Below, piece by piece: positions 11,098 through 45,257 of a stretch of DNA of 64,000 nucleotides (position 1 is its first letter; the number at the start of each line of letters is the position of its first letter). The notes below the pieces were generated by a model. It had not been told where the DNA came from, did not search any database, and saw only the letters and a program-made list of their open reading frames with translations. Position numbers and translations under genes: made by a program. Source of the DNA: Povalibacter uvarum (GTDB taxonomy: Bacteria; Pseudomonadota; Gammaproteobacteria; Steroidobacterales; Steroidobacteraceae); assembly GCF_014202975.1 (NCBI RefSeq), contig NZ_JACHHZ010000003.1, forward strand, positions 1 to 64,000. Direction: 5' to 3'.

Positions 11098-12321
11098 CTA
11101 CTTGGTGAGCAGCCCTTCGAACAGCGGCCGTGCGTAGATCTCCGCGCCGTTCTGCGCGGTGACACCGGGAGCCCAGAGGTGCAGTTCGGCCGAGGCGTTG
11201 ATCATCGCGGTGATCATCTGTGCGGCGATAGTCGCGTCCGCTGCCCGCAACGAACCGTCTGCGATGCCGTCGCTGCAAACGAGCGCGAACCTCCCGGAGA
11301 TCCGGTCGAACTCACCGATCAGCTGGCGGTGAATGTTCTCCGGTACGGACGTCAGTGCCGAGGTTCGCAGGAGCGGGGCGCTGCCGGTGAGTTGGTAATT
11401 CAGCAATGCGGCGCAGACGGAGGCGAGATTCTCGTAGCCGGTCTTGCTCGACGATGCGGCCGCGCGCTGTGCATGTCGCATGACCTCGAGGGTGCGCGCG
11501 AAACAGGCTTCGACCAGGTCGTCCTTGGCGTCGTTGTGATGATAGAACGCGCCCTTGGTGACATTGAGCTGTTCGGAGATCTTCTGGACCGACGCGCCGA
11601 GATAGCCCTGTTCGTTGATGAGTACCGTCGCGGCACGAAGGAACGTCTCGCGACTCTCGCTTGATCGATCGCTCGGAGAGGCCGGCAACGATGGCAGCGT
11701 CTGGGGTGACCATTTGCCGCGATTGTGAGCCAGGCCGCTTTCGAGGATATCCAGGGCATGGTCGGCCAGGCGGCCGTAGTCGTCGGCGTCGTAATGGTCG
11801 ATCCAGACGACCGACCAGAAGAGCTGCGACAGCAGCAGATGGATGCGGGCGTTGCAGTCGACGCGCTCGAGATTGCTGAACTCGCGCGACTTCATCAGCA
11901 GGCTGCGCGTGCGCCGGAACATTCCTTCGTAAGCTTTGCCCACGCCAGGATCGTGGACTGCGCGCACGTCATTGAACACCGCCATCTGATCGGCTTCACC
12001 AATCGCGATCTTGCGACGGTGCTCGAAGAAGCCGCGCACGAATGCTTCCAGCGCTTCCCGGGCGGTGCGTGCTTGCTCTGCCTGAGTCGCAAGCGTGTCA
12101 TACACTTCGATGGACCGATGGAAGCAGGAGGCCGCGAGCTCTTCCTTGCTCCGGAAGTAATACATCACGGCGGTCGGCACGAGATCGAGCTTGGAAGCGA
12201 CATCCGCCAGGGTCATTCCCTTGACGCCCTTCTTGTTCAGAACTTCGACAGCGGCGCGAAGGATCATGTCCTTGCGCTTGTGAAATTTCTTGGTGGGCTC
12301 CGGGCGGGATCGCGTGGCCAT
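11098..12321 (-). CDS. Tandem double-TetR transcriptional regulator
   Basis: A 407-residue protein holding two complete TetR-type units on one chain. The first DNA-binding domain (about 10-60) contains ILRAAVEVLNKKGVKGMTL and TAVMYYFRSKEEL. The second (about 215-265) contains TFLRAATVLINEQGYLGAS and TKGAFYHHNDAKDDL. Each is followed by its own helical ligand-binding-like region, so the length is about twice that of a normal TetR. The start at ATG 12321 (MATRSRPEP) is preferred to 12366, which adds 15 odd residues. It lies between the 3-hydroxyacyl-CoA dehydrogenase and a TonB receptor, all leftward. A single chain could act as a pseudo-dimer on an asymmetric or palindromic operator. Targets are unknown. 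Confidence 0.88.
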   Translation of the reverse strand: MATRSRPEPTKKFHKRKDMILRAAVEVLNKKGVKGMTLADVASKLDLVPTAVMYYFRSKEELAASCFHRSIEVYDTLATQAEQARTAREALEAFVRGFFEHRRKIAIGEADQMAVFNDVRAVHDPGVGKAYEGMFRRTRSLLMKSREFSNLERVDCNARIHLLLSQLFWSVVWIDHYDADDYGRLADHALDILESGLAHNRGKWSPQTLPSLPASPSDRSSESRETFLRAATVLINEQGYLGASVQKISEQLNVTKGAFYHHNDAKDDLVEACFARTLEVMRHAQRAAASSSKTGYENLASVCAALLNYQLTGSAPLLRTSALTSVPENIHRQLIGEFDRISGRFALVCSDGIADGSLRAADATIAAQMITAMINASAELHLWAPGVTAQNGAEIYARPLFEGLLTK

Positions 12322-12448
12322 TTTCGTCGTTGTTGCATCCTGAACGCAGACATACCGTAGCGACAAATTGTGCCCGTGGCGAGCAATTTTTGCACCCCGG
12401 TATGCACGCGCTCCTGCGCGGCTTCATGCCGAGGGCTGGAAAACGATT

Positions 12449-12519: not shown

Positions 12520-15042
12520 TCAGAAGCGATAGCGTGTTTGCAGCGTGTACATCCGGGGTGGAGCAGGGAAGCCGATGCGGGTGCCGATTTGCGAGGGCGC
12601 TTCGAACTCGTACCAGTAGTACTCCTCATTGGTCGCGTTCTGCACGAGCAGACCGATGCTCCAGCCGTCCTTGCCGGCCGGTCGCAACGTTGCGCCCAGA
12701 TCCATGAGCGTTCGTGACCCTTGCTCGATCGTGGGGTCCAACGCATTGCGCTGCTGGCCCGTGTAGACGACGTCGGCGCGCATCAGCAGTTCGAGGGAAC
12801 TGGTGAGAGACGCGGTGTATCCGACGCCGAAATTACCCGAGAAAGTGGGCGCGAAGCGGTCTCCGGAGTTGTCTTGCAGATAGGAGGCCGGTGTCCCTGC
12901 TCCTGGGTTGGCGGGAGTGAACACGCAACCCGGGACCGGATCCGGGAAGTAGCGCTGCGGGATGCTGCAGGCATTGCCCTCGTTCTCGAGGAAGCGGGCG
13001 TCGAGCCAGATCATGCTCGCATTGAGTCGCAACGCATCCGTCGCCTGCCAGATCGTCTCCAGCTCGAGGCCTTCTGCGCGGGATTTGCCCGCGTTGCCGA
13101 CGTCGAACCCATCACCGACCCAGGTCGACGTCTGCAGGTCCTCGAATTCCTGGTGGAAGAGCGCGAAGTTCAGCGCCGCGCTGCCGTCGAGCAAGCGCAG
13201 CTTGCCGCCGAGCTCGTAGCCGGTGACGGTTTCGTCGCTGAACGTTCTGTCCGAGGCGTTCTGACCGACGGTAGCTGAGTTGAAGCCGCCGCCTTTGTGG
13301 CCCTGAGCGGCCTTGAGGTACAGCATGGTGTCGGCGGTCGGGTCCCACGACAGCGTGAGTTCGGGTGACCAATCCTCCTCGGTGATGGTCTGCGTTATGC
13401 CGACGCGCGATGTGTTGATGATCCCGTTCACGTTGGCCGGCAGCGTGGCCAGGATGCGAGTGATCAATGCGACATCGGCGGGATTGCCGACCAGAGTGCC
13501 GCCGCTGTCGCGCGAGACGTCCAGGAACCGGGTCGAACCGAATTCGGACAGGGCATAACGATCCGTCGCGGTCTTGTCCTCGCGATTCCAGCGCAATCCG
13601 GCGGTCAGATGCCAGGTTGGCGTGAAATCGAACGTTCCCGAAAAATAGGCGGCGACGCTTTCGGTCTCCTGATCGAGATAGCGCAACTGAGCGTAGCGCC
13701 AATCGCTCGCCGGCCCGCCAAAAATGAGCGGGTCGGTCGGCTGTACGCCGAACGGCAGCAGGAAGACGCGAATGTCGATGTCGGTGCGACGATCCACGTA
13801 GAAGTCGTTCTTGAAGCCATGCAGACCGAGAAGGTACTCGAAGCGGTCGCCGACCTTCGAGAACAGCTGCAGCTCCTGGCTGAACTGATCGAACTCCTGG
13901 GTGATCGGCTCATAGAGGAAGTCCGTCGGGCTCCAGTCGACGTCGCGTCCATCCTCGGAGTCGTAACTCGAATAGCCGCTGATTGAAACCAGCCGGGTGT
14001 CGGGCGTGAACGAGTACTCCATTCGAACGGCGACATTATTGGCCTCGACGTCCGCTGTTTCCTGCTGCTTCGAAGTCTGGTCGAAGGTCCCAGCCTCGAA
14101 GTCCGGGTCGTAGGCGAGGTAGCTGCTCAGCCGGGCCTCAGGGCCCACGTCTGCCGCGGTTGCGGCGCAGGGCCAGCCAGTCGCCATCCCGAAACAGGTC
14201 GGACGTCCGACCTGCACGCCGCTCACCGACGAAATATTGAACGCCCGGCCGAAGCGCTCGTACTCGGAATGCTCGAGCTTCGTTCGCATGCTGAAGGAAT
14301 CCGTGGGCGTCCACAGGAAAGTCGCGCGACCGATCCAGTCGTTGCCCTGTTCCTCGCGTTCATTCGTCAGCGTATTGCGAACGTATCCCTCTTCCTCCGA
14401 GTAGCGCAGGGCCACGCGAGCCGCCAGGGTGTCAGTAATGCCCCCATTGACCACGGCTGTGTAGACCTGGCGATCGATCTCCGAGGTGAAATCGGCGCTC
14501 AGGTCCGCGGAAAAATCCTGCGTCGGCTGCCCGGTGGTGATCACGACGGCGCCCGCGGTGGTGTTCTTGCCGAAGAGCGTGGCCTGTGGCCCCTTGAGCA
14601 CTTCGACCGATCCGATGTCGAGGAACGTGCTGCGAAACTGACGCTCGCGCCCCGCATAAATTCCGTCGATGAAGAGACCCACGGACTGGTCGAAGCCGAA
14701 ATTCAGGCCGGTCGCGAAGCCTCGAATGCTGATCGATGTCTGCTCGCCGCCTTCCCGCACATTGAATCCCGGCACGTACGCGGACAACTGGTCGAGGTTC
14801 TGCAATGACAACTCGCGAATGGTCTCCGCGGACACCACGGAGACGGCGACGGGAACGTCCTGCAGGCTTTGCTCTCGTCGTTGCGCTGTGACGAGGACTT
14901 CTTCGAGCGTCCGGCCGCTCCCTTCCGCGGCGAGTGCTGATGGCGTTGATAGCGTCAGGGCCGTTGCGGCAATAGCGATTGACGACGCAACGGGGCTGGG
15001 TCCGCGCCTCCATGGCAAGTGCGCTGTTGTGTTCGTGTTCAT
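12520..15042 (-). CDS. TonB-dependent outer-membrane receptor
   Basis: An 840-residue receptor. From ATG 15042, behind AGGGGGAA, it has a signal peptide ending near TPSALAAEG. The TonB box/plug start follows (EEVLVTAQRREQSLQDVPVAV), the plug runs to about 170 with the typical VEVLKGPQATLFGKNTTAGAV, and a long beta-barrel ends with the C-terminal Phe (LQTRYRF). It moves a substrate across the outer membrane using TonB energy. This subgroup is common in steroid- and hydrocarbon-degrading proteobacteria. It is divergent from the propeller-esterase fusion at 15482, which suggests both act on the same large substrate; that is inference. Confidence 0.92.
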   Translation of the reverse strand: MNTNTTAHLPWRRGPSPVASSIAIAATALTLSTPSALAAEGSGRTLEEVLVTAQRREQSLQDVPVAVSVVSAETIRELSLQNLDQLSAYVPGFNVREGGEQTSISIRGFATGLNFGFDQSVGLFIDGIYAGRERQFRSTFLDIGSVEVLKGPQATLFGKNTTAGAVVITTGQPTQDFSADLSADFTSEIDRQVYTAVVNGGITDTLAARVALRYSEEEGYVRNTLTNEREEQGNDWIGRATFLWTPTDSFSMRTKLEHSEYERFGRAFNISSVSGVQVGRPTCFGMATGWPCAATAADVGPEARLSSYLAYDPDFEAGTFDQTSKQQETADVEANNVAVRMEYSFTPDTRLVSISGYSSYDSEDGRDVDWSPTDFLYEPITQEFDQFSQELQLFSKVGDRFEYLLGLHGFKNDFYVDRRTDIDIRVFLLPFGVQPTDPLIFGGPASDWRYAQLRYLDQETESVAAYFSGTFDFTPTWHLTAGLRWNREDKTATDRYALSEFGSTRFLDVSRDSGGTLVGNPADVALITRILATLPANVNGIINTSRVGITQTITEEDWSPELTLSWDPTADTMLYLKAAQGHKGGGFNSATVGQNASDRTFSDETVTGYELGGKLRLLDGSAALNFALFHQEFEDLQTSTWVGDGFDVGNAGKSRAEGLELETIWQATDALRLNASMIWLDARFLENEGNACSIPQRYFPDPVPGCVFTPANPGAGTPASYLQDNSGDRFAPTFSGNFGVGYTASLTSSLELLMRADVVYTGQQRNALDPTIEQGSRTLMDLGATLRPAGKDGWSIGLLVQNATNEEYYWYEFEAPSQIGTRIGFPAPPRMYTLQTRYRF

Positions 15043-15481
15043 GCATTCCCCCTGGATCAGTTGTCTAATAGTGATTCTGTTTCCGGCATACCGACTATGC
15101 AATTACGCCATATGGACCATACCACCGATACAATTGACTAATCCACAGATGATGGAAATGCCATAAAAATGGCATCCACGAAGGAGGTAACGAACGACCG
15201 GTCATTCAAGTGATGTTGCCGCGCAAGAACTGGGAGCCGCGATGCAGTCGCCAAAAGGCCTGGGATGGGTAGATCGACCCACTCCTCATTCGCGTGCAAG
15301 TTGGCGATTTGTACAACAAAAACCGCTACCTGAAGTTACCGAGGCTCGCACATGCTGGAGCCCAATCAATCAGTTGATGGGTCTTGAACTATTTTTTGAG
15401 CGGGTGGTATGGTCAGAGGAGGGGTCAGCACAAGTCACAACGATCCGGCGGCTGCCGCAGCCGCCTCAAGGGGAATCAGTC
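15043..15481. other. Divergent regulatory region between receptor and fusion genes
   Basis: This 439-base gap holds no convincing gene. An in-frame extension of the fusion gene to 15242 is open but lacks a lipoprotein signal. It contains a palindrome-like site at 15366-15381, an AT-richer part at 15050-15175 that probably carries the receptor promoter, and a strong ribosome site (AAGGGGA) just before the fusion ATG. Confidence 0.6.
15366..15381. promoter_or_regulatory. 16-bp palindromic operator candidate (site 4)
   Basis: TCAATCA-GT-TGATGGG: the left arm and centre are identical to site 1, and the right arm matches at 5 of 7 positions. It is about 100 bases before the start of the propeller-esterase fusion at 15482. 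Confidence 0.45.
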
Positions 15482-18244
15482 ATGCGATTGAAGGTTGTCG
15501 CCGCTGCGATGCTTGCAGCAGCCATGCTTGCCGGCTGCGGAGGGGGAGGGGGTGGTGGCGATTCGCCACCACCGCCTCCAGCCACCGATACCACACCCAA
15601 TGCTTTCAGTTTCGTCGCGCGCACGAACGTCGCGGTCGATACGCCGATCGCGTCCTCGGCCGTCACCATCTCCGGAATCAATGCAGCGGCCCAGATCAGC
15701 GTCACCGGAGGTGAGTACTCGATCAATAACGGGGCCTACACCAGCGCCGCCGGCACAGTAACCAATGGCCAGCAGGTTGCGGTGCGCGTCACGTCGAGCG
15801 CGACTGCAAGCACTGCGGTCACAGCCACATTGACCGTGGGTGGCGTGAGTGCCGTATTCAGTGTGACGACGGCTGCGATGACGAGTGGTGACCCTCTGCC
15901 GATCGGCTCGCAGAACTGGCCGATGTTCGGTCACGACTACGGGAACACCCGGGCCTCGAAGGACGAAACCATCGGCCCGCAGCATGTCGCGAACTTGCGG
16001 GTCGCGCATCGCGTCACAGGCGCGGGCGTCTCGAGCACACCGGCAATAGTGGACGGGGTCGTCTATTTCAGTGACTACGCCGGCTGGCTGAAGGCGGTCA
16101 ACGCGGAGACCGGCGCGGAGATCTGGAGCAAGCGGCTGCAGAACACGATGCTGACGCCTTCGCCCTTCGTATCCGGGGACAGTGTCTACATCGCCGGTGA
16201 CAACTCGAACGTCTATTCGGTAAACCGCTCGACCGGCGAGGTGCGCTGGACGGTCAAGATCGAGACGACGCCATACAACCGGATCTGGTCTTCACCCATG
16301 GTCGTGGGTGATACGCTGCTCATTGGCGCGGCCTCGTATCAGGTCTTCTTCGCTGCAACTCCGCTGTTCCGCGGCTCTGTCGTCGCACTGGATATCAAGA
16401 CGGGCGCGGAGAAGTGGCGCTTCTCCGTTTGCCCGCCGGCGTCGTGCGGTGGCGGCGTTTCGGTGTGGTCGAGCGTGGCCGTGGATCCGGATCTGAAGCT
16501 TGCGTTCATCGGTACCGGACAGGCCTACTTCACTCCCGCGGGCCCGTACTCCGATGCGTTGCTCGCCATCAACTATGAGACGGGCGCTCTCGTCTGGCAT
16601 CACCAGATCACGGCTGACGACGTCTACACGATCAATGGCGGCAGTCTCGATCGTGACGTCGGCGCTGCCCCGAACCTGTTCGAGGCGTCGATCAATGGCT
16701 CGGTGCGAAAGCTCGTAGGAGTCGGCGACAAGGGTGGACACTACACAGTCGTTGATCGGGAAACCGGTCAGCGAGTGTGGCAGCGGACCGTGGATCCTCG
16801 TACCCCCTCGGGCAGCCCGATCGGCGGCGTGATGGGGACGCCCACGGTAGCGGACGGCCGGATCTACTTCACGAACAACACTTCGACTGTGGGAACCGGT
16901 CGATTCGATGCGAGGCCGGGTACGAGCACGGCGTTTGCGCTCGATGCTGCAACCGGCGACATCGTGTGGAATCTGAATCTTCCCGCAGGCAGCTTCAGCG
17001 GCAACACCGTGGCGAACGGCCTGTTGTACTTCATTACGTGGGACGGCCAGTTGCGCGTAATCGATGCAACGAACGGGACGTTGCTTCACTCGATGCCTGT
17101 CGGCGCGCAAGTCGGCAGCTACGATGCGGCCGCCGAAGGCTTCCCCGATGGATCGACGAGCGGACCGGTGGTTTCGAACGGGCGCATCTACGCCGGATAC
17201 GGTTGGACCTGGGGTGCGAATGTCGCCGGCGGGCTCGCGATTCTCGAATCCGATTCCGTGCCGCCGCCGCTTCGCTGGGCGGCGACGTGTCCGGCGGGCT
17301 TCACGCCGCAGGAAGGTCTCAATTCCGGCTTCATGTCGGACGGCTATTCCCGCAGCTTCCGGATTCTCCCGGCTACTACCGGCACCGGCCCGCGGCCGGT
17401 CTTCGTGTCGCTTACCGGCACTGCGGAGATGGAAGCGGATTTCATGCGCGCCACCTTCATCGATCAATTGCCCGCTCAGGGATTCACGGTCATTTCGCCA
17501 GTGAGAATCTGTGCGGCGAACGGAACCAACTCGGTGTGTGCGTCGGGGACGGTGACCACCCAGGACGGACGCACGTGGGAGCCGTGGTTCGATGGCGTCG
17601 GTCAGAGCAACGTCGCGCAGTATCAGGATGCCGGCACGGACGTGCGGTTCTTCGAGCGAGCGGTGAAGTGTGCGGCGACGCGCTATGAGATCGACCAGAC
17701 GCGTATCTTCATCGGTGGTATCTCCGCCGGCGGCACTGCGACCAATCGTGCGCTGACTTTCAGTTCGGGATTCTTTGCGGGCGGCGCCCCTGCCTCCGGC
17801 GAATGGTATCGAACGGATGGCGTTCCCATCTCAGTCGAAAATGTCGGCGATGCGATCATCGAAGGGCGCGCTGCTCCACGGCCGCTCGATCGTTCCGCGG
17901 AGGCGTTGCAGCCATCGATCAACATCGTGTTGTGGGGCGGTGCCACCGACAAGTGGTACGCCAATGGCGCGACAGGCCCGCTGATCGCGAACTACAACCC
18001 GTCGACGAAGCTCTCAGCCAACTACTTCGCAAGCCAGTCGAATGTAGTAACAGTCTCGTGCACGCACGATCTGAATTACGCGCCGCCGATCGGCGGGCAT
18101 CTTTGGCCGCGCAGCCAGGCGATGACGAACTGGGTGGCGACGACGCTGGCGGCTCATCCGAAGGGAACGCCACGCGAGGCGTTCGTGTTGCCACCTACGC
18201 CGGCTGGGTTGACCTGCGTTCTGGGGAGCTACCAGGACCACTAA
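15482..18244 (+). CDS. Lipoprotein fusing a PQQ-type beta-propeller to an oxidised-PVA-hydrolase-like esterase
   Basis: A 920-residue protein. ATG 15482 follows AAGGGGA and gives a lipoprotein signal with lipobox LAGC (Cys19) and a Gly run. Residues about 35-130 look like a small Ig-like module. Residues about 140-590 form a PQQ/BamB-type propeller starting QNWPMFGHDYGNTR, with repeated AxDAATGDIVW blades. Residues about 600-920 are an esterase closely resembling PvaB at 26397-27536: nucleophile GISAG (Ser748), WGGATDKW (Asp) and GGHLWP (His). Oxidation of secondary alcohols and cleavage of the resulting beta-diketone would thus sit on one chain. No CxxCH haem motif is present, unlike PvaA, so electrons would need a separate acceptor. 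Whether PQQ is bound is untested. The palindrome at 15366 suggests control shared with the acyl-CoA genes. Confidence 0.85.
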   Translation: MRLKVVAAAMLAAAMLAGCGGGGGGGDSPPPPPATDTTPNAFSFVARTNVAVDTPIASSAVTISGINAAAQISVTGGEYSINNGAYTSAAGTVTNGQQVAVRVTSSATASTAVTATLTVGGVSAVFSVTTAAMTSGDPLPIGSQNWPMFGHDYGNTRASKDETIGPQHVANLRVAHRVTGAGVSSTPAIVDGVVYFSDYAGWLKAVNAETGAEIWSKRLQNTMLTPSPFVSGDSVYIAGDNSNVYSVNRSTGEVRWTVKIETTPYNRIWSSPMVVGDTLLIGAASYQVFFAATPLFRGSVVALDIKTGAEKWRFSVCPPASCGGGVSVWSSVAVDPDLKLAFIGTGQAYFTPAGPYSDALLAINYETGALVWHHQITADDVYTINGGSLDRDVGAAPNLFEASINGSVRKLVGVGDKGGHYTVVDRETGQRVWQRTVDPRTPSGSPIGGVMGTPTVADGRIYFTNNTSTVGTGRFDARPGTSTAFALDAATGDIVWNLNLPAGSFSGNTVANGLLYFITWDGQLRVIDATNGTLLHSMPVGAQVGSYDAAAEGFPDGSTSGPVVSNGRIYAGYGWTWGANVAGGLAILESDSVPPPLRWAATCPAGFTPQEGLNSGFMSDGYSRSFRILPATTGTGPRPVFVSLTGTAEMEADFMRATFIDQLPAQGFTVISPVRICAANGTNSVCASGTVTTQDGRTWEPWFDGVGQSNVAQYQDAGTDVRFFERAVKCAATRYEIDQTRIFIGGISAGGTATNRALTFSSGFFAGGAPASGEWYRTDGVPISVENVGDAIIEGRAAPRPLDRSAEALQPSINIVLWGGATDKWYANGATGPLIANYNPSTKLSANYFASQSNVVTVSCTHDLNYAPPIGGHLWPRSQAMTNWVATTLAAHPKGTPREAFVLPPTPAGLTCVLGSYQDH

Positions 18245-18256
18245 GGTCATTCAGAT

Positions 18257-18287
18257 GCGCGGGCGAGGTTAGTCACCTCGCCCGCGC
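18257..18287 (+). terminator. Hairpin after the fusion gene
   Basis: GCGCGGGCGAGGT-TAGTC-ACCTCGCCCGCGC is a perfect 13-bp stem 12 bases after the stop at 18244. There is no U-tract. A second, looser inverted repeat (18308-18317 with 18351-18360) lies before the convergent SDR gene. Confidence 0.55.
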
Positions 18288-18377
18288 GGATAGGAACTGA
18301 ACTTGTCATTCCCGCGCAGGCGAGGATCTTTCGACCCCCGATCCGAACCCGCGCGGGGATGGCAGGCCGTGAACGGT

Positions 18378-19181
18378 TCAGCCGTTCGCGCGCTCGTGGA
18401 ACTGCCAGATGCGGCCGCCGTCGACGACGAGGTCGTGGCTGTTCACGAAGCTGCCTTCGTCACTGGCGAGGAATAGAGCGGCATTCGCGATGTCGAGGCT
18501 CTGTCCCGAGCGCGGCAGCGGCGTGGCACGAGCCAGGTTCTGCTCGAGCTTGGCCTGCTTGCGGCGATTCTCTTCATTGCTCAGCTGGCCCGCGCGTGCT
18601 GACCCGCCCCAGAAGATCGGCGTTGCGATCGCGCCAGGGGAAATTGCATTGACGCGGATGTTGAATGCGCCGAGCTCGACGCCCGCAAGGTGAGTGAGTT
18701 GTGCCACCGCTGCCTTGGCTGCCGAGTACAGGAGGTCACCCTGGCCGAAGCGATGCGCGGCGACGCTGGCGTTGTTGATGATGCTCCCGCCGTGATCTTT
18801 CATGACGCGCGCCGCATGCTTCATACCGAAGATCACGCTGCCCACGAGGAGCTGCAGTCCGTCGCGAACCTCCTGCTCGGTGACGCTTTCGAGCTTGCAC
18901 GGGGTAACCGCGCCTGCGTTGTTGAACATGCAGTCGAGCCGTCCGAATCGCTTGACCGCGGAATCCACCAGGCGTGCGATGTCCGCTTCGCGCGTCACAT
19001 CGGCGGGCTCGAACACAACACGTTCGCCCAGTTCCCGCGCGAGCGATTCGCCTTTGGATACGGTCCGTCCAGCAATGAGCAGTCGTGCGCCCTCTTCCGC
19101 GAAGCGGCGTGCCGTCGCCTCGCCGATTCCGCTGGTTGCGCCCGTGATGATCACTGCCTTGCCTTCAAGTCTGCCTGCCAT
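18378..19181 (-). CDS. Short-chain dehydrogenase/reductase
   Basis: A 267-residue classical SDR. The NAD(P) motif TGATSGIGEA lies near residue 13, NNAGA near 90, and the catalytic segment YSAAKAAVAQ carries the YxxxK pair; a Ser-containing strand (NNASVAA) precedes it. The start ATG 19181 follows GGGAGAA; the open frame runs further upstream but that part is Pro-rich and unlike SDRs. It probably oxidises or reduces a hydroxy/keto group with NAD(H). It is divergent from acetoacetyl-CoA synthetase, and the shared region contains two palindromes (19372, 19404), so both may be under one regulator. The substrate is not known. Confidence 0.9.
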   Translation of the reverse strand: MAGRLEGKAVIITGATSGIGEATARRFAEEGARLLIAGRTVSKGESLARELGERVVFEPADVTREADIARLVDSAVKRFGRLDCMFNNAGAVTPCKLESVTEQEVRDGLQLLVGSVIFGMKHAARVMKDHGGSIINNASVAAHRFGQGDLLYSAAKAAVAQLTHLAGVELGAFNIRVNAISPGAIATPIFWGGSARAGQLSNEENRRKQAKLEQNLARATPLPRSGQSLDIANAALFLASDEGSFVNSHDLVVDGGRIWQFHERANG

Positions 19182-19419: not shown

Positions 19420-19490
19420 GGAAGCGCCGCGCTCTATGATCCGCGCCGCGCCACAATGTGCCCCTGCAGCGAATGCCCGATGGAATCGTC

Positions 19491-21599
19491 ATGACCGAGA
19501 CCACGAATCACCCGCAACCCCTTTGGCGACCCGACGACGTCCGTATCGGCAGAGCGGGTATCACCCGGTACCGGCGCTGGCTGAAGCAACGCTACCGGCT
19601 CGAATTCGCCGACTACGATGCGCTCTGGCGCTGGTCGGTCACGGAGATCGAGGAGTTCTGGCGTTCGGTCTGGGAGTTCGGCGGCGTCATTTCGCACGAG
19701 CCCTATACGCAAGTGCTGGATGCGCGGCGCATGCCGGGGGCCAAGTGGTTTCAGGGTGCAACGCTGAACTACGCGGAGCATGCATTGCGCCACGCGCAGC
19801 TCGAAGGAGTTCGCAACGATCCGGCGATCATCTTCCAGTCGGAGGTCCATGAGCGCAGCGAAGTGTCCTGGTCGCAGTTGGCGTCAGGAGTGGGTGCCCT
19901 TTCGACGATGCTGAGACGGCTTGGTGTACAGCCGGGCGACCGAGTCGCGGCCTATCTCCCGAACATCCCGGAGACCATCGTTGCATTGCTCGCAACTGCC
20001 AGTTGTGGAGCCGTCTGGTCGTGCGCTTCACCGGACATGGGAACGACTGGTGTGCTCGATCGGTTCGGCCAGATCGAGCCGACCGTTCTGTTCGCGGTGG
20101 ATGGCTATCGCTATGGCGGCAAGGACTACGATCGCCGCGCCGTCGTCGCCGACCTCGTGCGTCAGTTGCCGAGCCTGAAAGCTGTGATCTTCGTTCCGTA
20201 TCTCAATTCGGCGGCAACCCTGGAGATTCCGAGATCGGACGAGCGCGGGATCGTGACAGTGGTTTCCTTCGCGCATGCCACAGCGCTGCGCGCGACGACG
20301 GAGTTCACTCCCGTTCCCTTCGATCATCCGTTGTGGATCGTGTATTCCTCGGGAACGACGGGGATGCCCAAGCCGATCGTGCATACCCACGGCGGTACGG
20401 TGCTGGAGACTTTGAAGGCGTGCGCGTTGCATACGGATGTCGACAGCCGCGACCGGATGTTCTGGTACACGTCCACGAGCTGGATCATGTGGAACTTCGT
20501 GGCAAATACGTTGCTCTGCGGCGCAACGGTCCTGCTGTTCGACGGTAACCCTAGCCATCCTGATCTAGCGACGTTGTGGCGTTTTGCTGCGCGCGAGCGC
20601 GCGACGTTCATCGGCGTGAGCCCGGCATTCATCGGGATGTGCATGAAGGCGGACCTGCGACCCGCGCAGCAGTTCGATCTGCGTGCGTTGCGGTCGGTCG
20701 GTGCGACCGGCTCTCCGCTGTCGGCCGAGGGATACCGCTGGGTCTACGAGCACGTCAAAGCGGACGTCATGCTTGCCGTGATCTCGGGCGGAACAGATCC
20801 GGGAGCGTGCTTCCTGACCTGCTGCCCGGTGCTGCCGGTCTATGCGGGCGAGATGCAGTGCCGTGAGCTTGGTGTGGCGACGTTTGCCTACGACGATGCC
20901 GGCAACGAGGTCATGGACGAAGTGGGCGAGCTGGTGATGACGCAGCCGATTCCCTGCATGCCGATCAAGTTCTGGAACGACCATGACGGTTCTCGGTACT
21001 ACGAGAGCTATTTCGACGTGTACCCGGGTGTCTGGCGGCACGGCGACTGGTTGAGGCTGATTCCGCGACCCGATGCCGTCACTGGCGTCATCTACGGTCG
21101 GTCGGATGCGACGATCAACCGGCATGGCATCCGCATGGGGACGAGCGAGATCTACAGGGTCATCGAGGCTGCGCCGGAGGTTGCGGATTCGCTGGTGGTC
21201 GATCTCGAGTACCTGGGTGGCGAATCGTTTCTCGCGCTGTTCGTGGTGTTGCGGGATGCGTCAGCGGCCGATCCGCGATTGGCAGGGGCGGCGTCCGCGT
21301 CTGGAGTCACGGATGCGCAGGCGCGCGGCGTCTCCGATGATCTGCGATCCCAGCTGTTCGCCGCTGTGCGTACGCAGCTCTCCGGGCGCCATGTTCCCAA
21401 TGACGTCTTTGCGGTACCCGAGGTGCCACGCACGCTTTCAGGGAAGAAGCTCGAGGTTCCCGTTCGCAAGATTCTTCTCGATCACCCGATCGAGAAGGCG
21501 GTCAATCGATCATCGATGGCGAATGCCGCAGCGCTTGATTGGTTCGTTGCGTTCGCGGCGGCGCGCCGAACTGCGTTGCAGGCACGGCGTACGGGCTAG
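19491..21599 (+). CDS. Acetoacetate-CoA ligase (acetoacetyl-CoA synthetase)
   Basis: A 702-residue AMP-forming ligase. The N-terminal region has the acetoacetyl-CoA synthetase signature GAKWFQGATLNYAEH, then the P-loop YSSGTTGMPKP at about 284-294, YTSTSWIMWN, and a C-terminal LSGKKLEVPVRK with the catalytic Lys region. It should turn acetoacetate plus ATP and CoA into acetoacetyl-CoA. I chose ATG 19491 (MTETTNHPQ, after TGGAA); GTG 19458 and ATG 19473 are possible. It is slightly longer than usual (about 650) because of an Ala/Arg-rich insert near 600. Two operator-like palindromes precede it. A C4 keto-acid could arise from oxidised PVA ends, or from ketone-body or amino-acid breakdown. Confidence 0.88.
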   Translation: MTETTNHPQPLWRPDDVRIGRAGITRYRRWLKQRYRLEFADYDALWRWSVTEIEEFWRSVWEFGGVISHEPYTQVLDARRMPGAKWFQGATLNYAEHALRHAQLEGVRNDPAIIFQSEVHERSEVSWSQLASGVGALSTMLRRLGVQPGDRVAAYLPNIPETIVALLATASCGAVWSCASPDMGTTGVLDRFGQIEPTVLFAVDGYRYGGKDYDRRAVVADLVRQLPSLKAVIFVPYLNSAATLEIPRSDERGIVTVVSFAHATALRATTEFTPVPFDHPLWIVYSSGTTGMPKPIVHTHGGTVLETLKACALHTDVDSRDRMFWYTSTSWIMWNFVANTLLCGATVLLFDGNPSHPDLATLWRFAARERATFIGVSPAFIGMCMKADLRPAQQFDLRALRSVGATGSPLSAEGYRWVYEHVKADVMLAVISGGTDPGACFLTCCPVLPVYAGEMQCRELGVATFAYDDAGNEVMDEVGELVMTQPIPCMPIKFWNDHDGSRYYESYFDVYPGVWRHGDWLRLIPRPDAVTGVIYGRSDATINRHGIRMGTSEIYRVIEAAPEVADSLVVDLEYLGGESFLALFVVLRDASAADPRLAGAASASGVTDAQARGVSDDLRSQLFAAVRTQLSGRHVPNDVFAVPEVPRTLSGKKLEVPVRKILLDHPIEKAVNRSSMANAAALDWFVAFAAARRTALQARRTG

Positions 21600-26396: not shown

Positions 26397-27536
26397 ATGA
26401 ATCAGTCCTTGGGCATTCTGCGCCTGGCGCGTGGCGTGGTCGCGCTGGCCCTGGCTTCTGTCGCATCCGGATGCTCGAGCACCGGCTCCGATCGCACTGC
26501 GGCGACATCCGCTTCGACCGGAAGTGTGGCTGCCGGGACAGTCAAATGGGAATGCCCTGCGGGCTACGAGGTCAAGGAAGGCCTCAACGTGGACTTTCCG
26601 CACAAGGGAATGAAGCGCGCGTTCATCGTCTATCCGGCCAGGAACGCATCGGGCCCGGCACCCGTGTGGGTGCCGATGACGGGAAGCGTCGAATCCACGA
26701 ACGACAACCTGACCGTTGCCCGCAGCGGCGCCAATTCGCTCCTCGCCGAGCACGGTTACACGGTGATTGCGCCGGTGCGTGCGTGCGCCAATCAGGATCC
26801 GAACATCCGCGGCCAGGTCTGCAATGGTCCCGGCAGCAACGGATGGAACTGGAATCCGTGGTTCGAAGGCCGTGCCGGGGATCCAAGCGGCGATCGCTGG
26901 AAGACCGACGAGGGTCCGGACTCCTCGTTCTTCGTCGCGATGGTTCAGTGCGTAGGCACGAAGTACAAGCTCGACGCGCGCCGCTTGTTTCTGGGCGGCA
27001 TCTCGTCCGGCGGCACGATGACCAACAGGGCGCTGCTGTTTCGCTCGGACTTCTGGGCGGGCGGGCTGCCGATCTCAGGTGAGTGGTACGTAACAGCAGA
27101 CGACGGTTCACCGCTTTCGTTCGATGACGCGCGTGCCGCTGTCGCAGCCGCACCGACCAAGATCCATCAAGGACGCGTGGGACCCTATCCTCTGCCCGCG
27201 AAAGTTGGACCGTTGATCGTCATGACGGTGTGGGGTGGGGAAAAGGATCTATGGAACTGCACCCGTCCCGACGGCACGAAGTTTCTCTGCGCTGACTATC
27301 GGCCCAGCACGCAAGCCGGATCCAACTTCTTCAGCGCGCAGCCTGACGTCGTCCACGTCGCGTGCAGTTCGACTCACGGTCACATGTGGCCGCAGGTGAA
27401 CACTCAGGCATTCAATCGCTGGGCGCTGGACACACTGGCGTCGCATCCCAAGGGCTCTGATCCGCGCGGCTTCAAGCTGACGACACCGCCCGAGGGCTAT
27501 ACGTGCCACGTTGGCGCGTTCGCCGGCCTCTACTGA
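26397..27536 (+). CDS. pvaB: Oxidised polyvinyl alcohol hydrolase (beta-diketone hydrolase), lipoprotein
   Basis: A 379-residue protein. ATG 26397 follows AGGGGGATCC. The lipoprotein signal ends VASGC (Cys about 23). The body is a PHB-depolymerase-like alpha/beta hydrolase with nucleophile GISSG (Ser203), WGGEKDLW holding the likely Asp, and HGHMWP holding the likely His. Oxidised PVA hydrolase cleaves the beta-diketone units made by PVA dehydrogenase to a methyl ketone and a carboxylate. The next gene, 22 bases on, is a PVA-dehydrogenase homologue, the pvaB-pvaA pairing described in PVA-degrading Pseudomonas and Sphingopyxis. Lipid anchoring suggests action at the membrane facing the periplasm or outside. 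Two larger proteins in this window carry the same domain fused to a propeller. Function is inferred from motifs plus neighbourhood. Confidence 0.85.
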   Translation: MNQSLGILRLARGVVALALASVASGCSSTGSDRTAATSASTGSVAAGTVKWECPAGYEVKEGLNVDFPHKGMKRAFIVYPARNASGPAPVWVPMTGSVESTNDNLTVARSGANSLLAEHGYTVIAPVRACANQDPNIRGQVCNGPGSNGWNWNPWFEGRAGDPSGDRWKTDEGPDSSFFVAMVQCVGTKYKLDARRLFLGGISSGGTMTNRALLFRSDFWAGGLPISGEWYVTADDGSPLSFDDARAAVAAAPTKIHQGRVGPYPLPAKVGPLIVMTVWGGEKDLWNCTRPDGTKFLCADYRPSTQAGSNFFSAQPDVVHVACSSTHGHMWPQVNTQAFNRWALDTLASHPKGSDPRGFKLTTPPEGYTCHVGAFAGLY

Positions 27537-27558: not shown

Positions 27559-29478
27559 ATGCGACAGAAAAATCAGCGCAACCATATGCATTCGGCTTCG
27601 TCGCGCTTCGTCTGGGGTACGGCCCTTGCGCTCGTCGCAATGGCAAGTGCGTCGGCTGCTGAACTGAATCTGCCTGACGGCGCCAAGCTCTACGGAGCGC
27701 GTTGCGCAGCGTGCCACGACAATCCGCAGGATCGAACACCCGGACGCGACGTGCTCGCACGAAATTCTCCCGCGTTCATCATGACGGCGATGAACGGCGT
27801 CATGGCGCCAATGGCGGCGGGATTGACCGAGGTCGAGAAGCAGGCGATCGCTCTGCACCTGGGCGCAAAGCCCGCGGGCGGTTCCAAGGAAATCGATCCC
27901 CATGCCATCTGGGGACCGCCGTCGGCATCGATGCCGCTCGACGGCCCGAAGTGCAAAGGAAAGGTTCCGCCGATCGACTTGAGTACGCCGGATCAGTGGA
28001 ACGGCTGGGGCGCGGGCATCACGAATGCGCGTTTCCAGTCCAATCCCGGATTGACGGCCGCTGATGTCCCTCGCCTGAAGGTGAAGTGGGTCTTCAACTA
28101 TCCCGGTTCGAAGAACGGCCAGGCGACCATCGTCGGTGATCGGTTGTTCGTAACGAGCATGTCCGGTGCGGTCTATGCGCTGAATGCAAAGAGCGGCTGT
28201 GTCTATTGGCGCCACGATGCCGCTGCCGCCACGCGCAGCAGCGTCAACGTCGTCCAGTTGCCCGCGGGTGCGCCCGCTAAGCACGCGATCTTCTTCTCCG
28301 ATTGGACCAAGGCCGCGGTGGCGCTCGATGCCCAGACCGGCAAGCAGTTGTGGAAGACGACGATCGACGATCAGCCGGGCGTGCAGATGACGGGCTCGCC
28401 GACGTATCACGAAGGCAAACTCTTTGTGCCGATCTCCTCGGGGAATGAAGCTTTCGCCACCAACGATCAATGGGAATGCTGCAAGTTCCGCGGCGCGCTC
28501 GTTGCGCTCGATGCGGTCAGCGGCAAGGTGCTCTGGAAGACCTACACCGCGCAGAAGGAACCGGCGCCGTTTCGCCTGAACAAGATCGGCAAGCAGATGT
28601 GGGGGCCGGCCGGCGGTTCCATCTGGTCGGCGCCGACCATCGACCCGAAACGCGGACTCGTCTACGTCTCGACGTCCAACTCGTACACGGAAGTTCCCCA
28701 TGAAGGCTCCGATGCGGTGATCGCCATGGAGATCGAGACGGGCAAGATCCGCTGGATCAACCAGGTCACGAAGAACGACAACTACATCATCGGCTGCCCG
28801 AAGGCGGCGAACTGTCCGGAGAAAGTGGGTCCGGACTTCTCACTCGGCAACTCGCCGATCCTGCACACCCTCCAGGACGGTCGTCAGTACATCGTCGTGG
28901 GCCAGAAGTCCGGTGCGGTCTACGCCATGGACCCGGACAACGACGGCGAAACGATCTGGATGCGGCGCATGAGTCCGGGCAGCGAGCTCGGTGGCGTCGA
29001 GTTCGGCATGGCGGCTGATTCGCAGAACGTGTATCTCGGCATCTCGGATGTGATCACGCGGAAGGGCGGCAAGCCCGGTGTGTACGCGCTGCGCATTCGT
29101 GACGGTGCGGACGTATGGGGTTTCTCCGCTCCTCGTGTGCCGTGTCGCTGGAAGAATATGTTCTGTCATCCGGCGGTCTCGCAGGCGGTGACTGCGATCC
29201 CCGGCGCTGTATTCGCAGGCTCGATGGACGGGCACTTCCGCGCCTTCGCGACGAGCGACGGCAAAGTGCTGTGGGACTTCAACACTGCCGCAGAGTCGTA
29301 CACGACCGTAGCAGGCAAGCCCGCGGATGGCGGCGTCATGGACGGCGCAGGTCCCACGATCGCAGGCGGCATGGTGTACGTGCACTCCGGCTACGCGGGC
29401 CGCTCGACACAGAACGCGAGCGATCTGCGCGGTCGCGAGGGAAATGTCCTGATCGCGTTCTCGGTTGATGGAAAATGA
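27559..29478 (+). CDS. pvaA: Polyvinyl alcohol dehydrogenase, quinohaemoprotein (cytochrome c + PQQ propeller)
   Basis: A 639-residue periplasmic enzyme. ATG 27559 follows GAAGGAGA; the open frame begins at 27511 inside pvaB but has no signal there. A signal peptide ends near ASASAAE. A cytochrome c domain comes first, with haem motif CAACH (Cys49, Cys52, His53), then a PQQ propeller from about 150 to the end (NGWGAGITNARFQSNPG, GSIWSAPTIDPKRGLVYVSTSN). This haem-first order and length match the known PVA dehydrogenases rather than ethanol-type quinohaemoproteins, which carry haem at the C-terminus. It should oxidise secondary alcohols of PVA to ketones and pass electrons from PQQ to its haem. 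PQQ synthesis genes are not in this window. It forms an operon with pvaB. Confidence 0.87.
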   Translation: MRQKNQRNHMHSASSRFVWGTALALVAMASASAAELNLPDGAKLYGARCAACHDNPQDRTPGRDVLARNSPAFIMTAMNGVMAPMAAGLTEVEKQAIALHLGAKPAGGSKEIDPHAIWGPPSASMPLDGPKCKGKVPPIDLSTPDQWNGWGAGITNARFQSNPGLTAADVPRLKVKWVFNYPGSKNGQATIVGDRLFVTSMSGAVYALNAKSGCVYWRHDAAAATRSSVNVVQLPAGAPAKHAIFFSDWTKAAVALDAQTGKQLWKTTIDDQPGVQMTGSPTYHEGKLFVPISSGNEAFATNDQWECCKFRGALVALDAVSGKVLWKTYTAQKEPAPFRLNKIGKQMWGPAGGSIWSAPTIDPKRGLVYVSTSNSYTEVPHEGSDAVIAMEIETGKIRWINQVTKNDNYIIGCPKAANCPEKVGPDFSLGNSPILHTLQDGRQYIVVGQKSGAVYAMDPDNDGETIWMRRMSPGSELGGVEFGMAADSQNVYLGISDVITRKGGKPGVYALRIRDGADVWGFSAPRVPCRWKNMFCHPAVSQAVTAIPGAVFAGSMDGHFRAFATSDGKVLWDFNTAAESYTTVAGKPADGGVMDGAGPTIAGGMVYVHSGYAGRSTQNASDLRGREGNVLIAFSVDGK

Positions 29479-34551: not shown

Positions 34552-34553
34552 CG

Positions 34554-42281: not shown

Positions 42282-45257
42282 ATGAAACAGTTGAGGACAC
42301 TGGCATGTATTGCCGCGGTGGGTCTCAGTGTGGCCGGCATCATGAGCCCGGCTACGGCTGCTGAGAACTGGCCGATGTTCGGCAAGGGATATGAGAACAC
42401 ACGAGCCACGAGCGACACCGGGATATCGACCGCCAACATCGCGACACTCAGTGTCGTGCGGCGTACGACCGACGGCGGTATCACCGGTACGCCGACGGTG
42501 GTTGATGGTGTGGCCTACTACTCGGACTTCTCCGGCTATGTGAAAGCGGTGCGCGTCAGCGATGGCGTCGTCCTGTGGCGCGTTCGCCCGCAGACGACGA
42601 TGTTGTCGCCATCGCCGTTCGTTACCGCTGACACGGTCTATGTCGCCGGCAACAACTCGTACGTGTATGCGTTGAACCGTACCAACGGTGCCGTGCGATG
42701 GACGACGCAGATCGAAACTTCGCCGAACAGCCGTATTTCCTCTTCGCCGATCGTGGTCGGCAACATCCTGATCATCGGCACGGGTTCGTATCAGGTGTTC
42801 ATTCCAGCAACGCCGATGTTCCGGGGTCGCGTCGCATTCCTGAATGCGACGACGGGCGCGATCCTGCCGTACAGCACCAACATGTGCCCGAGCGCATCGT
42901 GCGGCGGCGGCATCTCTGTGTGGTCGACCGCTGCCATCGATGAGGCGGCGCGCACCGGCTACATCGGTACCGGTCAGGCCTATCGCGATCCTGCGGGTCC
43001 GTACTCCGACGCGCTCGTCGCGTTCAACATCGACACCGGCGCCATTCGCTGGGCGCGGCAGTTCGTTGCCAACGACGTGTATCAGCTGCAGGGAACGCTG
43101 CGGTATGACTACGACGTGGGTGCGGCACCGAATCTGTTCGTCGCGAACGGACAGCGCATGGTGGGCGTCGGCGGCAAAGACGGAACCTATCGGGCGTTCA
43201 ATCGCGATACAGGCGCGCCGATCTGGAGCACTCCCGTTGGTCAGGGTAGTCCGATTGGCGGCGTCATGCAGTCGACGGCCTATGGCGATGGCCGCATCTA
43301 CGTCACCAGCAATACTTCGACCATCGGCTCGGGTCGCAACGATCCGGTTCCGGCAACATCCGAAGCATTGGCGCTGGATGCCGCAACGGGAACGCCGGTG
43401 TGGGTGCGTCAGCTCGACGCCGGTGGTTTCGGCGGTGTCGCTTACGCGAACGGGCTCATGTACAGCTCGACGTGGGACGGCCGCTTGCGCGTGTTCAACG
43501 CGGCCAACGGCAATCTCGTAAAGGAAGTGCAGGTATCGCCGGCGCGCGGTGCCTATGTGCCGGCGCCAACGGATGGATTTCCGAACGGCTCCGCGGGCGG
43601 CCCGGTCGTGTACGGCAATCGCGTGCTGATGGGCTATGGCTGGACGTGGGTGCTCAACATCAACGGCGGCCTGACGACGATGGAGGCGACTGTTGGCGGC
43701 GGTGGCACGCAGACAGTCACGCTGGCGTCCAGCTCAGACACGTATGTTCAAAGCGGCACGCCGACGACCAACTACGCTTACAACGTGAATCTGCTGGCGC
43801 GACTGGCGGATGCGGAAGGGCTGACACGCGCCTCGTTCCTGCAGTTCCCGCTGACCGCGATTCCCGCGGGCACGATCACTTCGGCGCGGCTGCGCATCTA
43901 TGGCCGTCACGATGCTACGACTGGAACGGGGCAGTCCGTCTCCGTCTGGCCGGGTACCAGGACGACGACGTGGAGCGGGCCGAACGTCACCTACGACAAC
44001 TCCGATACGGAAACCGGCGTCGATTTCTACAACACGAGCTCCATCGCGACTGCGACCGTGGGCATCACGCCGCAGTACTACGAGTGGAACGTCACGGACT
44101 ACGTGGCATCGCGTCGATCGCTCGGTCACGCGACGTTCGGTTTGGCGGTCGACTCGGCGCATCAGTACCGCGTCACGTTCAATTCCGCTGACAACACGGC
44201 GAATCGGCCTGAGCTCGTCGTGACTGTGAGTGGCGGCGGCGGTGGCGGAAATCAGCTTCCCGGCAGCTGTCCCAGCGGCTTCACGGCGCAGGCAGGCGTG
44301 AACCAGGGCTTCATGCACAACGGTGTGGCCCGTGGATTCGTGCTGAATGTGCCGGCGAACACCTCGACGCCCCGCCCGGTCTTCGTCTCGCTGACTGGCT
44401 CGGTGGAGTCGACGAACGAAAACCTCGGTGCGCGCGGCGGCACAAGTGCGCTCACGAGCGATGGCTTCCTTGTCATCGGTCCGGTGCGTCGCTGTGCGGG
44501 TCAGGATCCGAATGGTTCAGGGACCAGCGTCAACGGCGGAACCTGCAATCAGGCGGGCACGGGCGGCTGGACCTGGAATCCGTGGAATGAAGGCCGTGTC
44601 TTCGCCACGGCCGGAGATCCCTGGAAGACAGCTGAAGGTCCGGACTCGCAGTTCCTTGAAGCAGTCGTGCGCTGCGTGGCGGGGAGCTACCCAGTCGACT
44701 CGACGCGCATGTACCTAGGCGGTATTTCCTCCGGCGGCACCATGACCAACCGTGCATTGTTGTTCAACTCGGACTTCTGGGCCGGCGGTCTGCCGATCTC
44801 GGGTGAGTGGTACGTCAGTCAGGACAACGGTACGGCCTATCCGGGTGCCGATGAGTTCGCTGCACGGCGTCAGGCAGTGATCAACAATCCGACCAAGATC
44901 TTCCAGGGGCGCGTGGGTCCGCTGCCGCTTCCGGCATCGCAGAGTCCAATGATCGTCATCTCGGTCTGGGGTGGAACCAACGACGTGTGGTATTGCGGCA
45001 GCACCTTGTGTGCCGACTACCGGCCGAGCACACAGGCGGCGTCCAACTACTTCAGTTCGCTGTCCAACGTCGTGCACGTCGCGTGTTCGTCGAGCTACGG
45101 CCATCAATGGCCAACGCAGAATCGCGCTGCGTTCAACACGTGGGCAGCTACTACACTGGCGTCGCATCCGAAGGGAGCGCCGGCGTCCTCATTCGTACTG
45201 CCGCCGCCACCCGCAGGTTATAGCTGCCGGATCGGTCGCTATACGGATCACTACTAG
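42282..45257 (+). CDS. Exported PQQ-type propeller + DNRLRE-like module + oxidised-PVA-hydrolase-like esterase fusion
   Basis: A 991-residue protein. ATG 42282 follows GAGGA. A Sec signal peptide (ending SPATAAE) has no lipobox. Residues about 25-470 are a PQQ/BamB-type propeller (ENWPMFGKGYENTR start). Residues about 475-650 are a beta-sandwich with the DNRLRE/CBM96-like pattern (SSDTYVQSGTPTTNYA, SFLQFPLTAIPAGTITSARLRIY, YYEWNVTDYVA), bounded by Gly-rich linkers. Residues about 660-991 are a PvaB-like esterase: GISSG (Ser816), WGGTNDVW and YGHQWP. It is a second, longer form of the fusion at 15482-18244, with a possible binding module replacing the lipid anchor. There is no CxxCH. Suggested role: oxidation plus cleavage of PVA or a related polyol while bound to it. 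The LysR gene convergent with it may regulate it. Confidence 0.85.
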   Translation: MKQLRTLACIAAVGLSVAGIMSPATAAENWPMFGKGYENTRATSDTGISTANIATLSVVRRTTDGGITGTPTVVDGVAYYSDFSGYVKAVRVSDGVVLWRVRPQTTMLSPSPFVTADTVYVAGNNSYVYALNRTNGAVRWTTQIETSPNSRISSSPIVVGNILIIGTGSYQVFIPATPMFRGRVAFLNATTGAILPYSTNMCPSASCGGGISVWSTAAIDEAARTGYIGTGQAYRDPAGPYSDALVAFNIDTGAIRWARQFVANDVYQLQGTLRYDYDVGAAPNLFVANGQRMVGVGGKDGTYRAFNRDTGAPIWSTPVGQGSPIGGVMQSTAYGDGRIYVTSNTSTIGSGRNDPVPATSEALALDAATGTPVWVRQLDAGGFGGVAYANGLMYSSTWDGRLRVFNAANGNLVKEVQVSPARGAYVPAPTDGFPNGSAGGPVVYGNRVLMGYGWTWVLNINGGLTTMEATVGGGGTQTVTLASSSDTYVQSGTPTTNYAYNVNLLARLADAEGLTRASFLQFPLTAIPAGTITSARLRIYGRHDATTGTGQSVSVWPGTRTTTWSGPNVTYDNSDTETGVDFYNTSSIATATVGITPQYYEWNVTDYVASRRSLGHATFGLAVDSAHQYRVTFNSADNTANRPELVVTVSGGGGGGNQLPGSCPSGFTAQAGVNQGFMHNGVARGFVLNVPANTSTPRPVFVSLTGSVESTNENLGARGGTSALTSDGFLVIGPVRRCAGQDPNGSGTSVNGGTCNQAGTGGWTWNPWNEGRVFATAGDPWKTAEGPDSQFLEAVVRCVAGSYPVDSTRMYLGGISSGGTMTNRALLFNSDFWAGGLPISGEWYVSQDNGTAYPGADEFAARRQAVINNPTKIFQGRVGPLPLPASQSPMIVISVWGGTNDVWYCGSTLCADYRPSTQAASNYFSSLSNVVHVACSSSYGHQWPTQNRAAFNTWAATTLASHPKGAPASSFVLPPPPAGYSCRIGRYTDHY

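Follow-up and report, generated by a model that had tools for sequence, protein, structure and literature searches.

A rare propeller-hydrolase fusion gene in Povalibacter uvarum with a quinoprotein-like fold and an altered metal site

A stretch of 64,000 nucleotides from Povalibacter uvarum (contig NZ_JACHHZ010000003.1, positions 1 to 64,000), called the window below, carries a gene, F1, in which a quinoprotein-type propeller is joined to an esterase of the oxidised polyvinyl alcohol (PVA) hydrolase (OPH) type (Table 1). Povalibacter is given as a PVA-degrading genus within the Steroidobacteraceae in PMC7966939. F1 is a single open reading frame (ORF) of 920 amino acids, free of internal stops, with a Shine-Dalgarno-like AAGGGG ahead of its ATG; a pattern scan of 15000-18500 revealed no sigma-70-like promoter (chance expectation 1.0) and no terminator pattern (chance expectation 2.2). 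The lipobox cysteine, Cys19, is followed by a linker rich in glycine and proline. The beta-rich N-terminal module may be Ig-like by its look, and a Pfam search of residues 41-138 gave no match. In Pfam, the propeller matched PQQ (3.3e-35), with its best stretch at residues 268-434, and PQQ_2, for which the best stretch was 179-316. The original prediction, made from the sequence alone, had described a 920-residue chain with a lipobox, a propeller and an esterase, and this description was confirmed by the ORF, Pfam, phmmer and motif searches.

When the genome was searched with F1, a second open frame of the same architecture, F2, was found in the window; it was absent from the original prediction. 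F2 starts with what looks like a Sec-type signal peptide, and inspection of its N-terminus showed no lipobox. Between propeller and esterase it carries a CBM96 module (PF24517, E 2.5e-28; NF033679, 87.9 bits against a cut-off of 34). The AlphaFold2 model of F2 was confident mainly in the propeller. The genome G180 of the same family contains a fused F1 orthologue of 923 amino acids, 89% identical and with the lipobox LAAC. It also has two F2-type proteins: the longer, of 1175 amino acids, has two CBM96 modules, and the shorter has about 1064 amino acids. This makes five fused genes in two genomes, with CBM96 in all three F2-type proteins, and the gene order around the fusions is largely common to the two (ORF lists read by eye). 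The architecture of F1 is beyond chance, since it is repeated at 42282-45257 and in three genes of G180. A sequencing or assembly error that joined two genes, a risk raised at the outset, is ruled out by the fused orthologue and the two further fused genes in the separate assembly G180, where the matches contain no stops, by F2, and by the purifying selection on both F1 domains described below; we give it a negligible probability.

The propeller-OPH fusion is real, conserved and rare. At E 1e-50, F1 matched 3 of 217 family genomes, and fusions were found in two of them, its own and G180. The third match (G071) was an OPH whose frame spans 389 codons; the ORFs of at least 250 amino acids in the surrounding 19.9 kb include no propeller gene. 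Profile surveys covered the window's own phylum, with the best few candidates (4 to 11) scored per genome, in order, class and phylum samples that overlap and each include the own genome. At E 1e-40, neither the 370 class genomes nor the 397 phylum genomes gave a match to the OPH profile A1 apart from the own genome, and the same was true of the 196 order genomes at E 1e-20; the propeller profile A2 matched only the own genome in 397 genomes at E 1e-55. As controls, A1 recovered the OPH of the Sphingopyxis 113P3 plasmid, which lay outside its building set, at 3.7e-154 and the G071 OPH at 1.7e-156. Nine of 72,556 plasmid records matched F1 at E 1e-20, none of them over 80% of its length, and a scan of genome contigs with F1, whose reach was close relatives only, detected one locus, apparently that of G180. 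No propeller-OPH fusion was described in the part of the open-licence literature that our search examined.

Both domains of F1 are under purifying selection. The ratio of nonsynonymous to synonymous substitution (dN/dS, Nei-Gojobori method, window against G180, dS 0.61-0.84) was 0.078 for the F1 propeller, 0.068 for its esterase and 0.14 for its N-terminal part; the separate OPH of the window, at 0.064, was close to the propeller and esterase values. Either of the two F2-type genes in G180, F2a and F2b, may be the orthologue of F2. The F2 propeller gave 0.083 against F2a and 0.116 against F2b, and comparison with F2b gave 0.186 for the CBM and 0.167 for the esterase. An unrooted tree of the propeller and one of the esterase both allow a single fusion event with later divergence, and in a constrained test of the esterase tree the unrooted best tree already fitted one fusion. 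These trees are not proof of a single fusion.

We have good confidence, from sequence comparison, that the C-terminal half of F1 is an OPH-type hydrolase. In phmmer searches of solved structures, residues 599-920 matched 3wla, an oxidised PVA hydrolase, at E 8.7e-68, and three more OPH sequences were matched by residues 591-917 (E 2.3e-62 to 1e-61); at E 0.001, OPHs were the only solved relatives of this domain. The motifs of a complete Ser-Asp-His triad (GISxGG, WGGxxDxW and GHxWP) are present as GISAGG from residue 745, WGGATDKW from 818 and GGHLWP from 871. The stand-alone OPH at 26397 has GISSGG, WGGEKDLW and GHMWP, and a motif search thus bore out the set that the original prediction had seen in both proteins. 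The F1 esterase is 43% identical to this OPH. Identity to OPHs was 56-60% for the F2 types and 40-45% for the F1 types, and F1 and F2 types were 45-46% identical to each other.

The AlphaFold2 model of F1 had a mean pLDDT of 62.5. Most ten-residue blocks of the propeller scored 63-93, some falling to 41-47; confidence was poor at the N-terminus and over much of the esterase. Eight blades were counted from the strand list of the model. The first nine Protein Data Bank (PDB) matches in Foldseek were PQQ (pyrroloquinoline quinone) alcohol or methanol dehydrogenases (1kv9, 1yiq, 6dam, 1kb0, 8gy2, 6oc5, 6zcv, 6zcw and 4mae). Among the 50 matches listed, 29 were PQQ dehydrogenases and 21 were BamB (one a BamA-BamB chimera), at root-mean-square deviations of 5-14 A, and none was an OPH; the esterase part of the model was weak as well. 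In sequence comparison, PQQ dehydrogenases came first only when the middle segment (window 16265-16861) was used (1kv9, 3.8e-14). The quinoprotein-type propeller expected from the sequence therefore held up as a fold, though 21 of the 50 listed matches were BamB. By this model, the propeller half of F1 is quinoprotein-like in fold; its metal site, by alignment, is altered.

The propellers of F1 and F2 types are 52-54% identical to each other. They are 31-35% identical to three proteins without a heme motif, two from Streptomyces and one from Paraburkholderia, and 24-27% identical to the PvaA-like protein of the window (PvaA) and to a PVA dehydrogenase (PVADH)-like protein of the 113P3 plasmid. 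The CxxCH heme motif is present in the latter two and in none of the five fusions, and an adjacent Cys pair is absent from the five fusions and the three heme-free relatives. The claim that F1 lacks the cytochrome of PvaA thus stood as far as the heme motif is concerned; the propeller groups with the heme-free proteins and is no PvaA-type propeller stripped of a cytochrome. Given the 24-27% identity and the separate branch, its origin from the local PvaA by truncation was rejected. One of the Streptomyces relatives is encoded among polyketide genes on plasmid pSGRIFU1, which we take to be the lankacidin region, and the protein is presumably Orf23. A quinoprotein dehydrogenase reportedly acts in lankacidin synthesis, to judge from a 2018 title by Yamauchi et al.

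For the active site we aligned 15 sequences: the five fusions, the three heme-free relatives, the 113P3 plasmid protein, PvaA and five other quinoproteins of the own genome; L035, L037 and the window quinohaemoproteins at 48989 and 53691 were left out. The columns examined, which we take to be Glu177, Asn261, Asp303, Trp243 and Arg331 of methanol dehydrogenase, were also assigned from alignments to 1kv9, 1yiq and XoxF. In such enzymes the Trp stacks on PQQ, the Asp is catalytic, a Lys or Arg contacts PQQ, and the Glu and Asn are metal ligands. Trp329, Asp390 and Lys417 of F1 are the same residue in all 15 sequences. Asp380, which is Asp in 13 sequences and Glu in two, was dropped as the catalytic candidate; Asp390 was preferred because its distance to the following Leu is as in 1kv9 and because it is invariant. 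At the metal-ligand Glu position, Gln287 is shared by all five fusions and by none of the 10 others. The Glu of PvaA, the plasmid protein and the Paraburkholderia protein lies one column on, where the fusions have Val, so that the fusions have no acid there under either alignment. Glu is missing from both columns in three of the 10 others, namely the two Streptomyces proteins and L038. At the Asn position, Gln347 is found in all five fusions and in L038, Glu in L036 and L039, and Asn in the remaining seven. The original prediction had made its propeller assignment depend on PQQ-binding residues: the Trp, Asp and Lys were kept throughout, while the Glu and Asn ligands are Gln in every fusion and there is no Cys pair.

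Asp392, two residues after the putative catalytic Asp, is present in 11 of the 15 sequences, with Ser in PvaA and the plasmid protein and Thr in two alcohol dehydrogenases. The resulting D-x-D is D390-R-D392 in F1 and D276-Y-D278 in F2 and also occurs in six of the 10 non-fused proteins. According to PMC11996626, D-x-D has been called diagnostic for lanthanide binding and is also found in glucose dehydrogenases; it is therefore not proof of lanthanide use. XoxF has a lanthanide-coordinating Glu (PMC8546591), and this residue is missing in the fusions. L036, L038 and L039 are PVADH-like quinoproteins of the own genome with a heme motif, and they have D-x-D together with Glu or Gln for the usual Asn.

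The genes around the fusions are of the pva type. Besides its stand-alone OPH, the window has PvaA, whose propeller is 63% identical to that of the 113P3 plasmid protein, and an acetoacetate-CoA ligase that is a candidate for use of the product. TonB-dependent receptors are present, as are 3-hydroxyacyl-CoA dehydrogenases and an acyl-CoA ligase, both under their cut-offs. A CxxCH scan of open frames of at least 90 codons in the window recognised no separate cytochrome gene; the motif occurred in PvaA, in two other quinohaemoproteins and in one frame inside an FKBP gene. Those two quinohaemoproteins lie on the minus strand at 48989-51325 and 53691-55796, one with a C-terminal and one with an N-terminal cytochrome c. 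The FKBP-type prolyl isomerase gene (41206-41988) is just upstream of F2, and its counterpart in G180 (L016:8302-9102) adjoins an F2-type fusion. At its C-terminus, F2b (L016:4813-8007) has a DxDxDG-type, dockerin-like tail with no Pfam match. Minus-strand genes at 30892-37913 (TatD-like, dehydroquinate-synthase-like, TIM barrel and phosphodiesterase) presumably resemble the ebo operon; in G180 their counterparts lie between pvaA and the F2-type fusions. A single regulator chain at 11098-12366 has two TetR DNA-binding stretches.

Table 1. Positions in the window of the two fusion genes, their domains and key residues, and genes of the cluster
Feature	Position	Strand	Basis
F1, propeller-OPH fusion gene, lipoprotein	15482..18244	+	ORF, Pfam, phmmer; orthologue in G180
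F1 lipobox LAGC, residues 16-19	15527..15538	+	sequence; lipidation presumed
F1 beta-rich N-terminal module, residues ~42-136	15605..15889	+	strands in low-confidence part of model
F1 quinoprotein-type propeller, residues ~145-590	15914..17251	+	Pfam, AlphaFold2 model, Foldseek
F1 Gln287, metal-ligand Glu position	16340..16342	+	alignment
F1 Trp329, equivalent of PQQ-stacking Trp	16466..16468	+	alignment
F1 Gln347, metal-ligand Asn position	16520..16522	+	alignment
F1 Asp390-Arg-Asp392, equivalent of catalytic Asp and +2 Asp (D-x-D)	16649..16657	+	alignment
F1 Lys417, equivalent of PQQ-contacting Lys/Arg	16730..16732	+	alignment
F1 OPH-type esterase domain, residues 599-920	17276..18241	+	phmmer against solved structures
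F1 Ser748, putative nucleophile	17723..17725	+	aligned Ser reads Ala in PDB sequence u57821 (3wl8, 3wwc)
F1 Asp823, putative triad residue	17948..17950	+	role by motif
F1 His873, putative triad residue	18098..18100	+	role by motif
Acetoacetate-CoA ligase, candidate for product use	19458..21599	+	TIGR01217, 790.8 bits (cut-off 520.9)
Stand-alone OPH, 379 aa, lipobox-like ASGC	26397..27536	+	ORF, sequence comparison
PvaA-like quinohaemoprotein, N-terminal CAACH	27559..29478	+	ORF, Pfam, motif
F2, second fusion gene, 991 aa	42282..45257	+	genome search with F1, domain models
F2 propeller, 54% identical to F1 propeller	42354..43706	+	sequence comparison
F2 CBM96 / DNRLRE module, residues 478-648	43713..44225	+	PF24517, NF033679
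F2 OPH-type esterase domain, Ser816/Asp901/His941 by motif	44259..45254	+	sequence, motifs

Starting from the fusion itself, the folds seen by sequence and by model, the triad motifs, the conservation and the location in a pva-type cluster, we propose that F1 and F2 are exported multidomain enzymes that oxidise and then cleave a polyol of the PVA type. That the fused chain oxidises before it cleaves is likely; for the proposal as a whole, in which PQQ, the substrate and the coupling of the steps are presumed, we see an even chance. The propeller would oxidise adjacent secondary alcohol groups, giving a beta-hydroxyketone or beta-diketone, with PQQ, its presumed cofactor, taken from outside. 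Because the fusion chain has no heme, the electrons would pass to a separate c-type cytochrome as the probable acceptor. The C-terminal serine hydrolase (Ser748/Asp823/His873) would then cleave a C-C bond of the diketone. F1 would be tethered to the membrane by its predicted lipid, and F2, which would not be tethered, would hold the polymer through CBM96. A bolder form of this scheme is a one-protein PVA depolymerase that would use PQQ in a rewired site (two Gln plus Asp-x-Asp) with a metal other than calcium, possibly a lanthanide, and hand the diketone directly to the hydrolase, the F2 type working on the polymer through CBM96. We consider this form decidedly improbable.

The use of PQQ and of a metal by the fusion propellers appears to be the weak link in a sequence of oxidation and cleavage, and several observations weigh against it. 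Both metal ligands, Glu and Asn, are replaced by Gln in 5/5 fusions. Among NCBIfam models, F1 scored best with TIGR04528 (acido_non_PQQ, "acido-empty-quinoprotein group A"), at 119.8 bits and far under its cut-off; TIGR03075 (PQQ alcohol dehydrogenase) followed at 111.2 bits, likewise far under its cut-off of 480, which the window's PvaA does not reach either (123.5 bits). In sequence searches of the PDB with the whole propeller, BamB gave better E-values than PQQ dehydrogenases, and in Foldseek the target-normalised TM-score was 0.73-0.81 for BamB (0.57 for the chimera 4pk1) and 0.48-0.67 for PQQ dehydrogenases. A PvaA and an OPH are already encoded separately in the cluster. PqqC had no match in the own genome (G000), where PqqE reached 61.3 bits, under its cut-off of 381.35. 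PqqC was also without a match in the control genomes. Of the 100 family genomes scanned, 20 had PqqC over its cut-off, including four of eight of the own genus, and G180 also had no match; if they use PQQ, the two genomes with fusions thus seem to depend on an external supply. A classic PVA degrader is likewise dependent on a partner for PQQ.

The two Gln, the "empty quinoprotein" model, the strong similarity to BamB, the separate PvaA and the missing PqqC would all fit a fused propeller that is redox-dead and serves for binding or spacing, with the hydrolase alone catalytic and cutting polymer oxidised by PvaA or the other quinohaemoproteins. We regard this as unlikely, if a serious alternative: the pocket Trp, the putative catalytic Asp and the Lys are kept, the propeller has a dN/dS only slightly above that of the hydrolase, the two Streptomyces relatives, one of them in the presumed lankacidin cluster, lack the Glu as well, and F2 already has a dedicated module of the binding type. 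Somewhat less probable again is a bifunctional oxidase-hydrolase whose substrate is a natural polyhydroxylated polymer or a polyketide-like compound rather than PVA. The heme-free relatives of the propeller include the Streptomyces polyketide-cluster protein that we take to be the lankacidin quinoprotein, and CBM96 is reportedly alginate-binding, by the title of one paper. The F1 esterase also sits on a long branch, 40-45% identical to OPHs, a further point against PVA, and its substrate may therefore differ from theirs. Against a natural substrate, the esterase has no solved relatives other than OPHs (phmmer, E 0.001), and PvaA and OPH are encoded in the cluster.

If F1 and F2 do oxidise and then cleave, a single exported chain would have both steps, with one type binding the polymer, and would offer a compact means of breaking down a water-soluble plastic in wide use. 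In 113P3, PVADH, OPH and a cytochrome c are encoded by three genes in one operon (PMC4611681), and PVADH and OPH are given as separate genes in PMC12243470 and in PMC9602593. Oxidation and cleavage are thus carried out by separate proteins in these PVA degraders; here both domains are in one chain. The site with two Gln and D-x-D raises the question of whether such a propeller uses a metal and, if so, which one.

Among known systems, OPH (3wl5, 3wl6, 3wl8 and 3wla) is similar to the F1 esterase over the whole domain and has the same triad motifs, but it is a separate protein, whereas the divergent domain of F1 forms the C-terminus of a propeller chain. PVA dehydrogenases, represented by PvaA of the window and the PVADH-like protein of the 113P3 plasmid, share the quinoprotein-type propeller and its Trp, Asp and Lys. 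The characterised enzyme may be another copy than this plasmid one, because PMC4611681 puts the published operon on the chromosome. The lanthanide-type PQQ alcohol dehydrogenases XoxF and PedH share the fold and D-x-D but, unlike the fusions, keep the lanthanide-coordinating Glu (PMC8546591). The Streptomyces polyketide-cluster quinoprotein has a propeller with 31-35% identity and, like the fusions, D-x-D, no heme motif, no Cys-Cys and no Glu; it differs in standing alone, in keeping the Asn and in having no hydrolase. BamB is alike in its eight-bladed propeller, in giving the best sequence E-values and in its high fold scores, and we know of no BamB with a fused hydrolase; the residues shared with PQQ dehydrogenases at Trp329, Gln347, Asp390 and Lys417 come from an alignment to dehydrogenases. 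From PVADH the fusions differ in having no heme motif, 24-27% identity, Gln/Gln for Glu/Asn and D-x-D for D-x-S. Judged by its heme motif and its Glu and Asn ligands, the fusion propeller is not a PVADH, although its function may be similar.

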